In this document: piece after piece, positions 3,201 through 57,659 of the stretch | How positions within the stretch are numbered: position 1 is the first letter of the stretch | How the letters are laid out: the number at the start of each line of letters is the position of its first letter | From: Cloeon dipterum | Lineage: Eukaryota; Arthropoda; Insecta; Ephemeroptera; Baetidae | Direction of reading: 5' to 3' | NCBI RefSeq assembly: GCF_949628265.1 | Contig: NC_088790.1 | Span: 31,562,545 to 31,626,544 of the forward strand | DNA: 64,000 bases | The notes under the pieces: model-generated | The model's database searches: none | What the model was told of the DNA's origin: nothing | Seen by the model: only the letters and a program-made list of their open reading frames with translations | Program-made: the position numbers and the translations under genes

Positions 3201-6200
3201 ATATAAATGATTTTCACAGCTCTCAACCTGGAGGGGCTGCGGGAACGTCAGTGGCTTTGTCCAGACCTGTTGAGCGGCAGGTCGAAGCGAGGCCGGTCGA
3301 AGACGCCCTGGGCAGCATGGTCAGGTGTCTCGCCCTAGAAGACACCTTCCTCGTCAACCGTAAGTTCTACTGACTTAATAAAATACAGTAAAGCAACGGC
3401 CGAACACTTAATACGAGTTTTGGTATGCCCTTTACGAGGCAGGTGCTGGCTACCAAATTGTCATCTGAGTTTATTTTTTAGAAGTCCGGTCCTAATGACG
3501 CAGAATTTAACGGCAAATCTGATGAACGTTGGTTTTTTACTGTATGAGCCGAGTTAATAATTTTTTCAGCCAAAACATGCAATATTTGACACTTGCCAAC
3601 TTTGGTTTTCGGTGCCCAGATGGGGCCCTATGGGCTGGACGGCCCCGATTCGAGTACCAATCGATGCCCCATGGTGAGGCGCGTCCGACCGTTTGCGGTT
3701 TTTCAGAATTGGACCATTTTTCGAAATTAGAAAATATAATTTCAGCCAAAGTTTCAAAAAAGTCGAAATTTAAAAAACAAATCAACGTGAAACTGATTTC
3801 CCCGGAAATTTAAAGGGTCTTATCAACTCCATTACACGTGCAGCTCCAACGCCGGTCTGCAAACCGATTTTAAGATTTTTGCGCCCATAGAATAATGAAA
3901 ATTAATTTTTTTCGGTTTTTCGGCTTCGCGCGATGAGCAATTTTTACACGCGAAAATGGTTTTATTTTTGTTAAAATTCGGCCGATCGTCCGATCGTTGA
4001 CCAAGACCCCTCGTCGGACACGTCTTAGAAGGGGCTTTGATCTGCGGTACCCTGATGACCTTTTTCAGGGTACTCCGCGCCCTGAGATTCGCTTAGGTGC
4101 CGTTTTTTTAGGGTTTTCAGTACTTTCGGGCACAATTTGGAGATAATTTGCGAAGATTTGTTACCCTTTCCCCACCGACCTTCCTCAGGTCACATAATTA
4201 CAGTTTTGCCAGCGGCGTTGCTAATTTTTTTGAAATGTTTGTCAATTTCGCCGCCCATCCAGATGTCCGAAGGGGCCAAAGGGCGCAAGCCACTTTTTTT
4301 AAAATTAAAAATTAATTTTTTTACATTTAGTAATTAATATACTTTCTTATTTTCAGAGCAAGGAACGTCGCCGACGTTGTGGGCCGGGACAAACAGCGGC
4401 AACGTGTTGATATTCGCGGTGACCGTGCCGAAGGGAAATAAACGGAAAGACGAGGACGTTTCCTGCCAGCTGGGCAAGGAGATCCAACTCAAGCACAGAG
4501 CGCCCGTGGTCAACATCATCGTGTTGGACGGCATCGGCTCGCCGCTGCCCATCCCTGGGGAGGTGAACGCCGGCCTCGTTCCCGCGCCTGACATCGTCGG
4601 GCCGCACCGAGTAGTCATTTGCTCCGAAGAGCAGTTCAAAGTAATAAATAATAATTTTATAAGTCTTAATTAAATTAATTTATTATTTTGAATTTAGACC
4701 TTCACTCTTCCTACCCTGAAGCCGTTCTGCAAGAGCAAACTGACAGCCACCGAAGGGTCAATGCTGCGGAGAGCAGCTGCCATTCGTCTCACGCCGTCCA
4801 ACGTCCGGGCCGAAGAAGCGCAGTACGCCTTGTTCGGCATCACAAACATGGGCGAAATCCTGTCGCTCACGCTTCCTGACCTCAGGAGACTCCTGGCTGT
4901 GCCGTGTATCAAGAGGGAAGACATTAAGTAAGTCTTTCTGAAGGAAAATCCGCCTCTCGGAATGTCGGAACTTACGTAAAATTTTTTCTTGCGTTCTAGT
5001 GAGGTTAGAACATCAAAATTTGGGTCAAAAGATGGATAATTTGACGGCAAATAATTGTTGTATTCGCAAAAATTAATTTGGAATATTTTAAATTGAAATA
5101 GATTTAAAATTTATTTTTAAATGTAGAATAATTTGGAAACTAGATGTTTAATTTATTTTTTAAAAAGGGTTTAAGTGTTACCCTAAGGGTTAAGAACATG
5201 CCTAGAAATTTTCAGGGTGGTGAACCTTTTAATTTTTTAGATGCAGAGGGTCAAAGGTAAATAAACGGATATTTTTTAAGTTTGGGGGAAAATTAAAAAA
5301 TTTAAAACGTTCTATTGGTTGATTTTTACCCTTGAAACAATGTTTTGGGTCCCGTTGAGGTCACTCAAGACCATCAGAACAAGTTATAAATCGTACCCTG
5401 GCGTCAGGGTAGCCCTCAGAATTATCAATATCTTCAATTATCATTTTGTTTCAACTTTAATTATGTCGAGAGCTTTTAGAAAAATTTCTTTATTACAATT
5501 TGACCTTTTGGGAGCTATCAGGGTGCTCAGGGAACGATATTTTATGCATGTCAGGGTCATTATGTTAAATATTAAATTTAATTGTTTCAGTGGCATCTCG
5601 ACGCTGGGATTTTCCCGCAGCGGCGAAGCCATTTTCCCTGTGTCGTCGAGCGAACTGCAGAGGGTGAGCATGGCGACGCAAAAGGTGACGGAGCTCAAGT
5701 GCCACCTGACCAACATGACGCGCTGCAAGCCGGAAGCGACGACCAACGGCACCACGAACGGCGACGCCGCGTCCGAGAGTGGAGCTTCGGAGGCCGGTAG
5801 CAAGAAAGGTACATCGCAAAGGTGACTCGCAACTATGCGTGTCGTGTGCAACCAAAACCAGACAGCATGATGCCTCCTCGAAATCGATCATTTGTGGCAT
5901 GAGTTTCGTCCCAAAGTTCCGAAACCCCTTTTTTTGCTCGCAGATTTCCTATTTTTTCTTGCTGCATGGAGTAAAAAGAATTTTCTTTTTGATAGAATGA
6001 TTCCAATTTTGGCTTTTGTTTCAGATGAGGCAACTGGAAGCGCGAGTCTCAACGTTTCGTCAGGAACAGAAGAACAGCTGGAAGTTAGCATGGGAGAGCT
6101 CACCTTGGATTCGGTCAAAGATCATTTAGCGTGAGTCGATTCTTTTCCAAGGAACGCCTAAAACTAGGTGCAACACTTTTAACTGTCTTAAAAGTGTGCC

Positions 6201-8503
6201 TCTGTAATTTTTGTAACTAAGTCATATTTTTTTAACCAACAAACCTACCCAGTAAAGAAAATACAACAAAATTTAGAATTTTTTTTCTATTTTTTTCTAC
6301 ACAAAATAAGTTGTTTAAAAAAAAATCGGCGATTAGGTCTAAAAGACGCAGAATCTGATGAACTTAAGCTTTTTACTCTACGATCCATAGGAGCTGAGTT
6401 TTAAATTTTTTAATTTAAAAAAAACGCGATTTGTGACATTTTAACTTTTTAATTTCGGGGCCCTATGGGCCCGACGGCGCTGATTAAGGTACCAATTGAT
6501 GCCCCTTGGTAGGGCGCATCCAGCCGTGTGTGGTTTTTCAAAATTAGATCTTTTTTGAATTTTTTAAAAAAAAAATCTTATTTGCCGAAATTTTGAAAAA
6601 GTCGAAATTTTTAATGAATTCCGCCGGCCATGTCTCGGTCTAGGTCAAAAATTCGAATGAATGGCTCCTAAGTTGACGCGAAATTTATCTAGGATCATTT
6701 TAAGACTAAATAAGAGCTGATCTGATCGAAATCCTACGAGAAGATAATTTTTAAACTTTGAAAAACGTGATTTTTGCACTGCCTCCATACGGATTACATG
6801 GGAAATCGATTTTTTCCTGGACGGGGGATTATAATGGGTTCTCTCCTAATCCATCGCACGCAAGGAACCGCCGTCGGTCTGGAAACCGATTTTCAGATTT
6901 TTCATGCCCATAAAAAAATTAAAATTAATTTTTTTCGGTTTTTCGGCTTTGCGACGCGCAAAATGGTTTTATTTTTGTTAAAATTCGGCCGTTCGTCCGA
7001 TCTTCAAGCACGACCCCTCATCAGATAGGTCTTGGACGGGGCTTTGACCTGCGGTACCTTAATGACCTTTTTCAGGGTACCCCGCGACCTGAGATACATT
7101 CCCAGGTCGGTTTTAATGCTTTTTCACCAATTTTGAGCACATTTGGTGATAATCAGTGACGATTTTTCATCCGTACTTGTCACCGACCTTCCTCAGGTCG
7201 CGCGACCTGAAGACGTTTTTTCCTGCGCCTCGACGGACAGTTTCTTGAAGGGCCCGAGGGGCTTGTTGATCCTTTAATGCCTGATTTCTATTTCCATTTA
7301 TCAGTATGACTTGATTAAAAATTTGAAACGGAAACAATGTGCAGCCCCAGCTCACCCGGAGTGACGACCTCGACCCCAAAGTCCTCGCCGAACGCCAACA
7401 ACTCCACTGCTATCAATTCGTCGACGCCGAACGAGAAAAAAGAGGCGGCTGCAGCCTTGAAGAACGGCGGCAACAGTCAATCGACGGAGCAGAGTAAGTT
7501 TAGTCGATTCGCCGGCCGTATCCTTGTGCATGCACCAATTTCCCCAAATTCCGTATCAGCTTTTAGCCTGTATGTACACGTATTCTAGCGTCTAGTCTAG
7601 CTTTTGTCGAGAGTAGTCGCGGATAGCTGCTAATGCATAGCGTGCAATTGTGTGTAGAAGTGCTTGACACCCCGCCCGACGTTGTTGATCAAGAAAATGA
7701 TGCAGAAACGGCAACGGCGGCGGCGGCGGCACCAACACCCGAGCCGCACAGTGAGGTCAGACTCTCCGCCATGCTTTCCCGCTTTCGGTCTTTGGTGGAG
7801 GAATTTAGCAAATTATTCTGTCTATCAACAGCTCTGATTAACATCGCCCTCTTTCCCTCTCCATTAATCGGAATAATATGATTATTTAATTGTTAATTGT
7901 TGGAGTTAGTTAGTTGGTTGGTAGTTAGTTGTTGCCTTCGAAGGACAAAAATTCGCTTATTTGAATTTTGAATCCTGAAATCAAGAAATTTTTAATATTT
8001 GGAGCTGCCAAAAGATTTCATTTTTTAATAACACGTAACACAAACTAAAGATTAATCGATTCCAAAGCCAATATTTGGTTTTTAATTGTATTTAATTTCC
8101 CAAAACTCATTTGATGGTCCTAGAAAACTGAAAAACACATTTTTAAATACATTTTAACCTTTTTTGTGTCCTTTGAATGCTAATTATTCTGTAAATATTA
8201 TTAAAACTTAACCAATAATTCCTTACTGCAATTTACAAGGCCAGAAAATCGCTGACCATGTGGAAATTTCCCCGATATCTCTCTGTCACGATTGGAAATT
8301 TGGCCGATCTTACATGTTACAATTTCCAATCACGACAGAAAGAGAAAAAATATTTTCTGAAAAAACCAGCGGCACAAAGACTAACAATTTTACTAATAAA
8401 TGATTGTTTTTTGACAACTTTTGTAACAAAGTTGTCTTCGTTTTTGCAGATTAATGGCAGTGCAGACGGCAAAGCTCCTTTGGCAATCTCCGAGGATCTG
8501 TGA
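256..8503 (+). CDS. l(2)gl: Lethal(2) giant larvae homolog (5' end missing)
   Basis: Cortical polarity and tumour-suppressor WD40 protein that acts with Scribble and Dlg and is antagonised by aPKC. Exons: 256-353, 411-498, 552-658, 713-856, 901-1239, 1591-1754, 1810-2267, 2470-2625, 2678-2957, 3011-3167, 3220-3359, 4357-4640, 4698-4927, 5591-5808, 6025-6130, 7345-7493, 7658-7755 and 8450-8503; all phases close (about 1089 residues). The first visible exon encodes [17 protein letters not shown], the start of the first propeller in this family, so only about 30 N-terminal residues should lie upstream. The exon at 3011 encodes the basic aPKC target loop [20 protein letters not shown], which separates Lgl from tomosyn. 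[12 protein letters not shown] near 6110 is the conserved late Lgl segment. The last two exons are the least certain: the 7658 exon uses a modest GTCAGA donor, and without it the frame stops at once in the 8450 exon. Several introns are filled by repeats A, D and E. Confidence 0.93.
1278..1547. repeat. Repeat A, copy 1 (inverted-repeat element)
   Basis: Bounded by GGGATGTTTCC (1278) and its complement GGAAACATCCC (1537-1547), with internal GTGAAACCGAAAT-type and TTCGGC..TTTCGAC segments that pair. About 270 bp in l(2)gl intron 1240-1590, nearly filling it. No coding capacity, so MITE-like. Confidence 0.7.
3485..4300 (+). repeat. Repeat D, copy 1
   Basis: Carries the D blocks: GACGCAGAATTT, GGGGCCCTATGGGC-type segment, ACCAATCGATGCCCC, ATTCGGCCG and the CTTTTTCAGGGTAC segment. 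It fills l(2)gl intron 3360-4356. Confidence 0.7.
5190..5560 (-). repeat. Repeat E, reversed copy
   Basis: Reverse-strand CTAGAAATTTTCAGGGTGGT, CCCTGGCGTCAGGGTAGCCC and ATCAGGGTGCTCAGGGAACG blocks in l(2)gl intron 4928-5590. Confidence 0.5.
6330..7260 (+). repeat. Repeat D, copy 2
   Basis: Has the full D block order including GGGGCCCTATGGGCCC, GATGCCCCTTGGTAGGGCGC and GACCTTTTTCAGGGTACCCC. It fills l(2)gl intron 6131-7344. Confidence 0.7.
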
Positions 8504-52228: not shown

Positions 52229-52369
52229 TATCGATTTAAATCGATATATATCGTCTGAAAAAATATCGATGTTAAAATATCGTCCTATATAACCTATGTT
52301 AAGCCACAAAAAAACATCGATAAAAATCGATAAATATCGTCAGAAAAAATATCGATGTTAAATATCGAT
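52229..52369 (+). promoter_or_regulatory. Cluster of seven ATCGAT (DRE-like) motifs upstream of eIF3b
   Basis: ATCGAT occurs at 52,229, 52,239, 52,265, 52,316, 52,326, 52,351 and 52,364. Each matches seven of eight bases of the DRE consensus TATCGATA, bound in flies by DREF at housekeeping promoters. The last copy is 68 nt before the eIF3b ATG. Two arms (from about 52,258 and 52,343) are near duplicates. Function is inferred from motif density and position. Confidence 0.5.
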
Positions 52370-52436
52370 TTTTATTTGGCCATGTCTAGGCTGTGTGCTG
52401 CTGCTGCTTCCGCCATTGCCCCACGAGGTTTCCAAG

Positions 52437-55400
52437 ATGGGAAAAAAGAAAGAAGGGGATAAATCCCCTCGGAATTTCGAAAACAATCGTTTCAACCGCT
52501 CAGAAAGCTACGGAGATGACGAGCCGAATTTCAGCGACGACGAGAACTTCGAGGACACCATCACGGACGAAGGTGAGGCTCCGCTTTCTCCGTGTCCAAA
52601 GTGAACACGTTGCGCCGGCTGGCCCGACCAGCTACCGGGCCAAACCCCCAGCAGCTTTCACCGGAAAATGCCGAAAATGCCGAGATTTCAGTGTTTTGGC
52701 TCGATTAAATTGTTTTCTGGCCATTTATTGTTTGTTTCCTGTGCGTAGAACTGCTCGCTGAGTTTTTGATTCACCGTCCGAGGGAGGAGGACAGTTATGA
52801 GGGCATCATCGTGGTGGACGGCGCCCCGCAGGTCGGGCCCGAGCGTCTCGAGAAGCTCAAGGGCGTCATCAAGAAGATGTACGGCAAGTTTGGGACCATC
52901 ATCAACGAGTTCTACCCCACCGACGAGAAAAACGTCACCAAAGGGTACTAAAAATTCATGTTTTAAAGGGTTAAAAATTAATCTGAACTTCCCGCAGGTT
53001 CATTTTCTTGGAGTACAAGAATCCGAGCGACGCCGTGGACGCCGTCAACGCGACCAACAACTACAAACTAGATAAGCAACATACTTTTCTCGTGAACCAC
53101 TACAGCGACTTTGAAAAGTGAGTGGTTTTTTTTATTTTTAGGGCATTATTTAAATATTTAATTCCTACGTGATGATAAATTATATTTGTGTGAAACTCTG
53201 TGATGCACAATAGGCTTAATCTTTTCTGAAAAAGGTGCTCCGAATGTTGAACTGAAATTGATAAGACTTATTTGTTTTTAATTTTTGTGGTAATTCTTTG
53301 TTTTAGGTATTCGAATATTCCTGACGAGTGGACGGTGCCCGAGCCTCAGGAGTACAAGGACCAGGGCAATTTGCACTATTACCTGCTGGACCCTGACGCG
53401 TACGATCAGTACTGCCTCATCTGCTCGTCCGGATCTACGGTTCAAATTTGGCAAAATGCTGCGCCCGAGCCGACAGTTGTCGAGGAACGACCGGTAAGTC
53501 TCTTTTAATAATTATTTAAATATTTAATCCCTACAGGATGACAAATTAATTTTGTGTGAAACTCTGTGATGCACAATAGGCTTAATCTTTTCTGAAAAAG
53601 GTGCTCAGAGCGTTGAAATGAAACTGATAAGATTTGTTTCTGTTTTTAATATTTATGGTAATTTATTTGTCTTAGAACTGGACGGAAACGTATGTGCGAT
53701 GGTCGCCGTTAGGAACCTACATGGCCACCTTCCACGCAAGAGGCGTCGCTCTCTGGGGCGGGCCAAAGTTCAAACAAATCATGAGGTTTAGCCACACTGG
53801 AGTGCAACTCATTGACTTCTCTCCCTGTGAAAGGTAATTATTTCAGTTCCGTCTTAGGGTCGGGGGCGGCGAAGGGGCCTAAAACATGCAGATTTTCACG
53901 GCGAGTCTGATGAACTTTGGTTTTTCACTGTGCGACTCATAGAAGCTGTGTTATTAATTTTTCAAGTTGGAAAAACGCGATCTGTGACATTATAAACTTT
54001 GGTTTGTGGGGCCCAGGCGGGGCCCTATGGGCCGGATGTGGCCGATATGGGTACCAATCGATGCCCCTTGGTAAGGCGCGTCTACCCGTCTTCGGTTTTA
54101 CAAAATCTGACAATATTTCGAATTTTTACGAATTTTTTTCAATCGATTTTTAGAAAAAGTCAAAAAATTGTTTTATTTTTCTTAAAATTCGGCCGTTTGT
54201 CCGATCGTTGACCGTGACCCCTCATCGGACAGGTCTTGGACTGGGCTTTGACCTGGGGTACCCTAACGACCTTTTTCAGGGTACCCCGACCTGAGATCCG
54301 CTCCCAGGCCGATTTTTAAAGCTTTTTCACTAATTTCAAGCACATTATTGTCGATAATCAGTGCTAATTATTCACCCTTTCCTCTCAGTTGTCATTGACC
54401 TTCCTCAGGTCGCGTGACCTGAGGACTGTGTTTTGCTGTTTTTTGACAAATGGGGCAAAAGTCACTTGTTTTTTAATTATTTTTCCCTTTTTTTACAGAT
54501 ACCTTGTAACATATTCTCCTGACGGACCGTCCGATCAGCGTCGCGTGATCATTTGGGACGTCAGAACTGGTGCTGAGAAGCGGTCGTTCTCTCTAGATGG
54601 CGTGTCCCTGTGGCCCGTGTTCCGGTGGTCGCCTGACGACAAGTTCTTCGCTCGCATCGGCCAGGATGTGCTCAGCGTTTACGAAACACCGGTATTTACT
54701 TGTTTTTATTTATTTATTAATCCCGTTTTCCTATAAGCGGCATCTTACACGATGAAACAATTATATTTTGAGTGAAACTCTGTAATCCACAAAAATATGC
54801 CTAAATTTTTATCTGAGGGATGCCCTGAACCCTTTTTTATTTTTTATTGTCTCTTAATTAATCTCCTGTAAACCTCTTTGTCCTTATTTTAAACATAAAT
54901 GAACTATAATTCACGGTTTTCCTTTAAATTTTGTAGTCTTTCGGTCTGCTGGACAAGCGGAGCATCAAAATCCCCGGCATCCGGGACTTCGCGTGGTCGC
55001 CGACGGACAACATTCTTGTCTACTGGGTGGCCGAGGACAAGGACGTGCCGGCGCGCGTGTGCCTGCTCGAGATCCCCAGCAGGCAGGAGGTGCGTGCCAA
55101 CAACCTGTTCAACGTGGCCGACTGCAAGATCCACTGGCAGAAGTCGGGCGACTACCTCTGCGTCAAGGTCGACCGCTACTCCAAGGTCAAGAAGGAGAAG
55201 AACGACGCCAAGTACAGCGTCAGCTTTTGCGGCATGTACTACAACTTCGAAATCTTCCACATGCGCGAGAAACTGATCCCGGTGGACAGCGTCGAGATCA
55301 AGGAACCGATCCACGCGTTCGCCTGGGAGCCGGTGGGATCCAAGTTTGCCATCATCCACGGCGACCAGCACAGCATCAACGTTAGTTTCTACGGCGTCAA

Positions 55401-57659
55401 GCAGGGACAGCCTCCATCTTTGCTCAGTGAGTTGTTTCAAATTAATTCAAGAATTCAGAGTTAGAACAAATGAGAAATCCGCGCTCAATAAGTGTCTGGG
55501 AGGGAAGCAACAGCTGTTTCAGGCGATAGTAGAGACATCTGCGAATATCTAGCTAGAGCAGAGAAGGTCACAGGCAGCTCTAGAAGTCACGTGACTCAAT
55601 CCCGCAATCTCATTGGCTAAGAGCAGGCACTAGCATTTCGTGCTTCTCCCTACTCTTGTAATACCCCCCCTCTGAGGAGTTAGAAATGCGCAGTGGAGTG
55701 CGCACCATTGCTAGGAGGAAGTGGAGGGGAGAAGCTTGCTCTCGGCCGGAATGGAGTCACGTGACTGCTCTTGCTGGATATGCGCAGATGTCTCTGCCGT
55801 CGCCTGCTTTCTCAGCTTGGAAGCATGGCTGTGACGTCAGAGGGAAGACGCATGCGTAGTAGCTACCAGAAAATTCTTGCGTTGCGCGCGCTTAAGAATT
55901 ATTTAAAAAATTGTCTTTCAATCATTTTGCAGAGAAATTCGAAAAGAGGCAGTGCAACCACCTGTTCTGGTCGCCGACTGGGCAGTTCATCGTGCTGGCT
56001 GGTCTGCGCAGCATGCACGGCTCGCTCGAGTTCATCGACACGAACGAGTTCGTGGTGATGAACGCCGGAGAGCATTACACGGCCTCGGACGTCGAGTGGG
56101 ACCCCACCGGCCGATACGTCGTCACCGGCGTCTCCTCCTGGAAACAGAAGGTGGACAACGGATTCTGGCTTTGGTCATTCCAGGGCAAGAAGCTGAAGAA
56201 GCACAACATCGACGGCTTCTGCCAATTAATGTGGCGGCCGCGGCCGCCGTCTCTGCTCAGCGCCAAGCAGCAGAAGGAGATCAAAAAGAACCTTAAGAAG
56301 TACACTCCGCAATTCGAGAGCAAGGATCGCATGCGCTCCACCAGGGCTTCCAAGGTATTCAAATGGTTATTATTCTCCTGATCGGCTTTGCTAAAGAAAG
56401 GTGAAATCTAGGAACTTATTGAGAAGCGCTGCCAGCTGATGAAGACGTTCGAAGAGTACCGCCAGAAGAACATCGCGGCTTGGAATGAAGCCAAAACTCG
56501 TCGTCTTGAACTTCGTAACAGTAAGTTTCTCTTTTGATGGAAAAAATTTGCCTCTAAAAAGATTCTTCAAACCAAATTTCATCTTAATCGAGCAAAAAAT
56601 GCGAGATTCGCGAGAATATACGGTCACGTGACGTAGGCGAGCGCGCTGATTGGTTGCAGGACACGCCCACTTTTTCAGTCATAAACGGAAACAAAAATTC
56701 TTGGTAGCCTACGATCGGGTTTTTGGTATTCAAAATCGGCCACAGGAGAAGGGGGCGTAACCGAGGGAATACAATATGGCGGCGATCCACACCCCCTTTC
56801 GCGCGTTGTCAGCGACGAATTAAATTCTTTACTCAAAGAATCCTCGACGCACGTCAAGAACTCCTGCAGTTGTCTAGCAACAGTTTAAATTCATAGGGAA
56901 ATACACGGGAAACGGAAATCAGGGAAAGCAGCAAGAATTCTTTGATCAAAGGATTCTGGACGCTGATTGGTTTACGCAGAAGCACGTCAAGAGCTCCCGC
57001 GGTTGCCTAGTAACAGCTGAATTGCGCGGGAGAATCTGACATTCGCATGTTTAGCGAAGAATTTTTGCGGATTTTTCCTGTTTTCTAACGGTTTTAACAA
57101 CTATTAATGAGTTTCTGCGATTGTATTTCGATGGGAAAACTCTTCAGCTGCTAAAAATCGGTTCCCAGCTCGTTGGTAGTGGCAGAATGGAAAGAATTTT
57201 ACCAAAATTCTTCAGGCGTTAACCTAAATTTTTCAATTTGCAGGCAATTTTTACCTTTTTCCACTGAAATAATAATCGTTTTGCACTTCTCTAACTGTCG
57301 TCCGACAATGAATTTCCCATCAAACACAATTTCAGCAGAATCTTGCCGTTTTAGTTGTGTTGTGACTGAAAAGTGGGCGTGGCCATAATCCAATCTCGCG
57401 AATCTCGCGCGAGAGATCGTGAGAAACAAATGAATCGCTGAATTCTCAATTTTTCGTTCTGACATTCTTTACTTTAAACGACCGTTATTTAAATAATTCT
57501 CTTTTTTTTGTAATTTTGACTAACGAATTTAACATTGGAACTGTGAATTATTTTTTTGAAGATGTGGACACGGACGAACTGGAGTCTGACACAAAGAACG
57601 TCGAGGAGGAGGAGATTGAATTCTTGGTCAAGGAAGAGCACACTGTGATCGAGGAGTAG
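52437..57659 (+). CDS. eIF3b: Eukaryotic translation initiation factor 3 subunit b
   Basis: Scaffold subunit of eIF3, which binds the 40S ribosome and recruits mRNA. Exons: 52437-52572, 52749-52944, 52998-53117, 53307-53493, 53676-53833, 54499-54691, 54937-55426, 55933-56354, 56412-56520 and 57562-57659; all phases close to 702 residues, close to insect eIF3b. An acidic N-terminus ([20 protein letters not shown]) precedes an RRM from about residue 62 to 145 ([23 protein letters not shown]). The WD40-like propeller includes [67 protein letters not shown]-like [11 protein letters not shown] and [16 protein letters not shown]. The end [16 protein letters not shown] is the conserved tail that binds eIF3i. 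Introns hold repeats D, C, G and a set of mutually homologous introns. AATAAA for the transcript is at 57,982-57,987. Confidence 0.97.
53118..53306 (+). repeat. Homologous intron, member 1 (eIF3b intron 3)
   Basis: 189-nt intron whose sequence matches eIF3b intron 4 from near the donor to near the acceptor. The segment 53,185-53,240 is identical over 56 nt to 53,551-53,606. Confidence 0.85.
53494..53675 (+). repeat. Homologous intron, member 2 (eIF3b intron 4)
   Basis: 182-nt intron homologous to intron 3. Both contain TTATTTAAATATTTAAT near the 5' side, GTGTGAAACTCTGTGATGCA in the middle and TTTTTAAT with GGTAATT near the acceptor. Confidence 0.85.
53857..54460 (+). repeat. Repeat D, copy 10
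   Basis: G-rich head, TTTTCACGGCGAGTCTGATG, ACCAATCGATGCCCCTTGGT, GACCTTTTTCAGGGTACCCC and CGACCTGAGATCCGCT. It fills eIF3b intron 53834-54498. Confidence 0.7.
54692..54936 (+). repeat. Related intron, member 3 (eIF3b intron 6)
   Basis: A segment at about 54,757-54,825 with GAGTGAAACTCTGTAATCCA and GCCTAAATTTTTATCTGA is a diverged relative of the central part of introns 3 and 4. Confidence 0.6.
55480..55900. repeat. Repeat C, copy 4
   Basis: Shares CACGTGACTCAATCCCG, CACGTGACTGCTCTTGC, TGACGTCA (55,832-55,839) and ACGCATGCGTAG with the other copies. It occupies most of eIF3b intron 55427-55932. Confidence 0.75.
56700..56800. repeat. Repeat A, fragment
   Basis: Shares the GGGGGCGTAACCGAGGGAAT and ATATGGCGGC core with copy 1. 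It is in eIF3b intron 9, next to repeat G. Confidence 0.45.
56790..57140. repeat. Repeat G, copy 2
   Basis: GGACGCTGATTGGTTTACGC, GCAAGAATTCTTTGATCAAA and two X-box-like motifs (GTTGTCTAGCAAC at 56,869-56,881 and GTTGCCTAGTAAC at 57,002-57,014). In eIF3b intron 9. Confidence 0.6.

Follow-up and report, generated by a model that had tools for sequence, protein, structure and literature searches.

Introns 3, 4 and 6 of the eIF3b gene of Cloeon dipterum share a core that is very probably a box C/D snoRNA, hosted by eIF3b and multiplied by intragenic (cis-) duplication. The features of the sequence point to a probable C/D snoRNA family hosted by eIF3b, whose three copies within the gene are here called A, B and C (in introns 3, 4 and 6, respectively); the duplication process itself is already known. 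This reading offers an ordinary cause, namely an intron-encoded snoRNA duplicated inside its host gene, in place of a story of intron gain. It would also add a probable set of eIF3b snoRNA genes with a testable prediction, 2'-O-methylation at G42 of the 18S rRNA. A caution follows for animal genes in general: where near whole-intron homology is met, intronic RNA genes should be checked for before introners are invoked. Coordinates given without a contig refer to the window, that is, the whole 64,000-nt stretch of DNA that was analysed, and the gene features described below lie on its plus strand.

The host is a genuine eIF3b gene. Splicing out eight introns, placed by hand, yields a continuous eIF3b frame with a single stop, which falls towards the end of the final piece (ended at an arbitrary point, 56570). 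Chains of eIF3b in the PDB match residues 1-390 of the product (best E 1.1e-152, with residues 25-390 aligned), and the match extends through the places where introns 3, 4 and 6 were spliced out. Intron 3 (53118..53306; 189 nt, phase 2) is the host of copy A, intron 4 (53494..53675; 182 nt, phase 0) that of copy B, and intron 6 (54692..54936; 245 nt, phase 0) that of the diverged copy C; splicing at each of them restores the eIF3b frame. The initial annotation, which had drawn attention to the likeness of these introns, gave the coordinates and sizes of introns 3 and 4 exactly. It was also right that duplication of exons is no explanation: compared over 40 nt, the exon sequences flanking introns 3, 4 and 6 resemble one another no more than the 95th percentile of shuffles, and this, together with the frame, rules exon duplication out.

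Introns 3 and 4 are identical in 158 of 192 aligned columns, and their local alignment scores 248, where the best of 300 shuffles scores 62; an ungapped repeat pair of 135 nt within them reaches 89%. Homology becomes clear from base 28 onwards in intron 3 and from base 18 in intron 4, and it continues to the acceptor AG, pairing 53145..53306 with 53511-53675. The two introns had been described as aligning from near the donor to near the acceptor, and the acceptor half of that description stands. Their last 40 nt are homologous with a score of 23, which none of 2000 shuffles reached, while the same comparison among the other 27 pairs of eIF3b introns gave -14 to 7. At the donor, homology is not detectable: a score of 2 for the first 27 nt lies inside the range that the other 27 pairs cover (-9 to 6). 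Of the 27 nt taken from intron 4, 10 belong to the homologous part. Inside the homologous segment, the reported 56-nt identical block (53185..53240, identical to 53551-53606) was recovered exactly, with a mismatch at either side. When the 175 ungapped columns were shuffled 20,000 times, a run of this length appeared just 120 times, so conservation is higher in the block than in the remainder of the pair.

Intron 6 resembles the other two in a much narrower stretch. Its local score is 88 with intron 3 (shuffle maximum 67) and 86 with intron 4 (shuffle maximum 62), each with 300 shuffles. Scored separately, the core reached a value found in 0 of 300 shuffles in both comparisons, which bears out the earlier claim that intron 6 carries a diverged version of the core. 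For the flanks, the score was equalled in 68 of 300 shuffles on the 5' side and 78 of 300 on the 3' side in the comparison of introns 3 and 6, and in 6 and 202 of 300, respectively, in that of introns 4 and 6, where the 5' value is a weak hint of slight similarity. The similarity of introns 3 and 6 ends at two short motifs that can be read as C and D boxes.

The class features of box C/D snoRNAs are given in a review, in the part of it available to us (PMC8162545). As criteria we used a C box (RUGAUGA) near the 5' end, a D box (CUGA) near the 3' end, a length of about 60-90 nt, a guide of about 10-21 nt that is complementary to rRNA or snRNA and adjoins D (or D'), and a terminal stem joining C and D. 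Copy A, predicted at 53164..53235 with its ends placed by a weak CCT/AGG stem, has the C box GTGATGA (53169..53175), an exact RTGATGA, and the D box CTGA (53226..53229); between them, D'-like (within ACTCTG) and C'-like (TGATGCA) boxes at 53195..53207 are putatively assigned by position. Copy B, predicted at 53530..53601 with ends that are likewise putative, has the C box AGGATGA (53535..53541) and the D box CTGA (53592..53595). Copy C, a C/D snoRNA-like unit at 54739..54824 with a diverged guide, has the C box ACGATGA (54749..54755) and the D box CTGA (54813..54816). Thus, the D box is exact in all three copies, and the C boxes of copies B and C each depart from RTGATGA by one base, at position 2.

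The dimensions also agree with the class. From C to D the copies span 61, 61 and 68 nt (A, B and C), and copy C measures 86 nt from stem to stem. Most intronic C/D snoRNAs lie at a conserved distance upstream of the acceptor or branch point, according to the same portion of the review (PMC8162545); in eIF3b, the D box stands 77 nt (A), 80 nt (B) and 120 nt (C) before the acceptor. A perfect 6-bp terminal stem (GGCATC/GATGCC) closes copy C, and CCT/AGG is all that was found in copies A and B. Copy C (54735-54830) folds with a z of -3.31, only 1 of 200 shuffles being as stable, and copies A and B are no more stable than shuffled sequence (z +1.05 and -0.08). A core with C/D snoRNA anatomy and an 18S guide would explain why it is that particular stretch of the introns that is conserved, a point that the initial annotation had missed.

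The putative guide of copy A, GGCTTAATCTTT (53213..53224), is antisense to positions 39-50 of the 18S rRNA over 12 Watson-Crick base pairs, with one unpaired base before the D box; in copy B, the 18S complement at 53579..53590 is identical and equally placed. The 18S gene used is that of the same genome, located with a sequence pattern and delimited with Rfam. As the base five upstream of D pairs with G42 of the 18S rRNA, the guide would predict 2'-O-methylation of G42. Across the genome, the guide followed by its D box occurs twice, both times in these introns.

How much this complementarity is worth depends on where it is asked for, and it was noticed before it was tested. The window has 596 CTGA boxes, counting its two strands. 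When 18S, 5.8S and three pieces of 28S were taken as the target set, 8 of these boxes had at least 9 antisense nt at an offset of 0-1, and only those of copies A and B had at least 10. In 60 first-order shuffled windows (mean 399 boxes), the numbers were 8.65 at 9 nt, 2.13 at 10, 0.5 at 11 and 0.1 at 12, and the last of these, divided by about 399 boxes, gives a probability of about 2.5e-4 for a 12-nt match at any given box. A 12-nt match is therefore not remarkable somewhere in the window, but it is improbable at a D box that is fixed by the remaining anatomy. Among 34 C-like boxes in the window, only those of copies A and B belong to a C..D pair with a guide of at least 9 nt, the pattern used ([AG][TCG]GATGA) having been chosen after the three copies were seen; the strict pattern RTGATGA gives 16 boxes on both strands of the window. 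Since copies A and B are homologous, their shared guide counts once.

Further guides were sought in 18S, 5.8S and four pieces of 28S (877, 323, 324 and 2256 nt; the rDNA is partly N and the 28S incomplete). In this set, no target was found for copy C next to its D box, its best stretch being 8 Watson-Crick pairs, and no D'-adjacent target was found. A 13-nt stretch on the D' side of copy B (9 Watson-Crick pairs and 4 G-U) that can pair with 18S 1468-1480 was set aside, as it does not adjoin the D'-like box. The rDNA array itself (contig C5, 1265185-1496443) contains seven 5' ends of 18S on the minus strand, and the pattern for the 3' domain of 28S matched once, on the plus strand. Matches to 28S in the rDNA stretches of the array are incomplete or shortened, and the stretches contain 4545 to 7500 N each.

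We take plant and Cloeon 18S numbering to agree in this region, which would put G42 four bases from the plant site Cm38. In the portion of the 18S site table of PMC11542601 that was available, which lists plant sites and includes human, yeast and algal sites solely where these are shared with plants, G42 is absent and the local entries are Am28 and Cm38. The Drosophila 18S site named in this region, in the accessible text of PMC13228274, is Am28.

Rfam was consulted at several scales. A scan of the whole window at gathering scores returned 0 matches, and membership in a described Rfam family was rejected, nothing having come above cut-off. A match above an Rfam cut-off is not required for the C/D class; as none was reached, no described family is claimed. 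When the 111-nt core of intron 3 was scanned alone, 9 of 11 matches up to E 10 were to C/D snoRNA families, on the plus strand, all of them sub-threshold. The corresponding 111 nt of copy B gave 5 matches, 4 of them to C/D families (one of these on the opposite strand), again all sub-threshold, and one control stretch of the same size from intron 6 (54826-54936) gave 0. With RF00152 (SNORD79), copy A aligns with its C and D boxes in register, far below threshold (19.4 of 47 bits) and with no shared guide shown.

A scan of the whole gene (52400-57600, E up to 10) gave 4 weak matches, none on copies A and B. One lies on copy C, RF00477 (snosnR66), at 21.5 bits and E 8.7, with the most bits and the third-best E-value; the C and D boxes are in register here too, far below the cut-off of 65 bits and with no shared guide shown. 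The other matches are to the opposite strand, at other places in eIF3b: mir-H20, snR76 (E 7) and sR42 (E 5.5). The last two are C/D families and are apparently matched by chance, so weak C/D matches are not rare, and the support that Rfam lends to a snoRNA is weak.

These weak Rfam scores, the chance C/D matches elsewhere in eIF3b and the poor folding of copies A and B would suit an explanation that needs no snoRNA, in which the core is a shared intronic element of splicing or transcription, or an old non-functional fragment of a repeat, and the box and guide matches arose by chance. Yet chance would have to bring together a C box, a D box, their span, the distance to the acceptor and an 18S guide in register, and to confine the similarity of introns 3 and 6 to the unit from C to D. 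We regard this explanation as unlikely.

The likeness of introns 3 and 4 had also been attributed, as one option, to introner-like gain, in which a mobile unit bringing its own splice sites would have inserted recently at both places. Two features fit: homology stops at the acceptor AG without entering the exons, and the phases of introns 3 and 4 differ, as expected of scattered insertions. Introners would, however, be expected in many copies that make up introns across the genome, and those recognised here lie in one gene. When both introns together, the core of intron 3, intron 4 and intron 6 served as DNA queries against the whole genome (190 Mb, 10 contigs), matches were found in these introns only; the counts are lower bounds, as common words were skipped. 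A similar search with a repeat in intron 5, serving as positive control, listed 50 matches at 72-100% identity (1002 candidates, 40 of them scored). The sensitivity of the search has a limit that leaves some room for introners: intron 3 or intron 4 as query found the other but not intron 6, so copies equally diverged would be missed.

Two further searches looked for additional copies. A 21-nt core pattern with at most 2 mismatches was found across the whole genome in introns 3, 4 and 6 and at one place on contig C1, and the reversed pattern, as control, gave 0. The place on C1 (16383025, 2 mismatches) was rejected as a chance match, after a 501-base stretch had been read by eye and no accompanying guide seen. 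A sequence model built from the three copies and scanned over the window gives its own sources 94, 92 and 75 bits, as it must by construction; among the 61 matches listed, the best of the others has 9.6 bits, so the window shows no other clear copy. Within the reach of these searches, the core is not an abundant dispersed element. The initial annotation had proposed a genome search with the intron sequences and had reasoned that an ordinary repeat would have its copies mostly outside introns; no clear matches outside eIF3b, and no clear copies outside introns, were found in the 190 Mb.

The ends of the homology also speak against introners, which should be alike from splice site to splice site. 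Introns 3 and 4 share the acceptor end, but homology at the donor end is undetectable; their exon flanks are not alike above shuffles, and intron 6 has essentially the core alone in common with them. Target-site duplications or terminal inverted repeats, which many but not all introner families possess, were looked for by eye at the three junctions, and none were seen. Furthermore, among the animals and land plants surveyed in PMC9860276, introners are reported in only two groups, both animals, in the available part of that paper. Introner-like gain is thus not supported, and we consider it highly improbable; the copies found and the ends of the homology led us to reject an introner or a dispersed repeat.

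With a snoRNA as the shared unit, two rounds of copying give the simplest account. The older one involves intron 6 and can be made out in little more than the core; in the younger one, which links introns 3 and 4, the flanks can still be recognised. An older intragenic duplication would have left the core in intron 6, where the guide of copy C has diverged and its target may be lost, and in a younger duplication the snoRNA and the flanking intron down to the acceptor would have been copied between introns 3 and 4. The most likely route is recombination or gene conversion between existing introns. The undetectable homology at the donor end favours copying into an intron that already existed, and transfer between existing introns was rightly among the options first put forward. 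In one scan, no relatives of eIF3b were found in viral contigs.

A real snoRNA is also compatible with a single intron transposition, by reverse splicing into the mRNA and copying back, which would make one of the two intron positions new. Near whole-intron homology with the acceptor as its 3' limit is what such an event would leave. However, it would copy the full intron, and the donor-side 27 nt of intron 3 and 17 nt of intron 4 are not detectably homologous; later change could hide this, and the event seems to us very unlikely. We give a slightly smaller chance to the combined proposition that the snoRNA guides an unlisted site (G42) in the 5' domain of 18S and that its segment created or replaced the neighbouring intron, travelling with intron gain.

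The snoRNA would be encoded in introns of the eIF3b pre-mRNA, the intron being trimmed to the snoRNA after (or during) splicing, and the trimmed RNA would assemble with the C/D proteins. The guide of copies A and B could then pair with 18S 39-50, and the ribose on which fibrillarin would act, according to the fifth-nucleotide rule, is that of G42, which may thus be methylated.

Such a family has close parallels. Duplication of snoRNAs in cis, into other introns of the same host gene, is described for chicken and platypus in the part of PMC2653536 available to us, and cis-duplicated snoRNAs of nematodes and platypus are cited in the accessible text of a paper on sponges (PMC3412847). As in those cases, so far as these excerpts go, the eIF3b copies would be C/D paralogues in different introns of one protein-coding host; in contrast to them, introns 3 and 4 of eIF3b also keep a recognisable flank down to the acceptor (PMC2653536, PMC3412847). 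Among the literature matches listed, no report of an eIF3b-hosted snoRNA was found.

The Drosophila isoforms CD5a, CD5b and CD5c offer a second comparison (PMC13228274, available in part). They are likewise similar isoforms that do not necessarily have one target: guidance of Am28, close to the 5' end of 18S, is predicted for CD5b and CD5c but not for CD5a. The eIF3b guide and its predicted site (18S 39-50, G42) differ from theirs. Introners, as described in the accessible part of PMC9860276, are also similar introns at different positions, but in eIF3b there are three copies in one gene, with no detectable homology at the donor end and with a third copy that is similar in the core only.

Several other repeats were observed in and around eIF3b. 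Directly upstream of the start codon (52230-52362), an ATCGAT-rich motif occurs in two 47-nt copies (91%). The repeat in intron 5 (53870-54400) is a dispersed element of about 500 nt with at least 50 matches, itself included, on contigs C1-C5; two further listed copies lie within the window, at C5:31612376-31612797 and C5:31594519-31594976. Intron 7 (55520-55806) contains imperfect inverted repeats, one of 42 nt with 86% complementarity and one of 30 nt with 80%, whose arms lie 142-203 nt apart; they are MITE-like by form.
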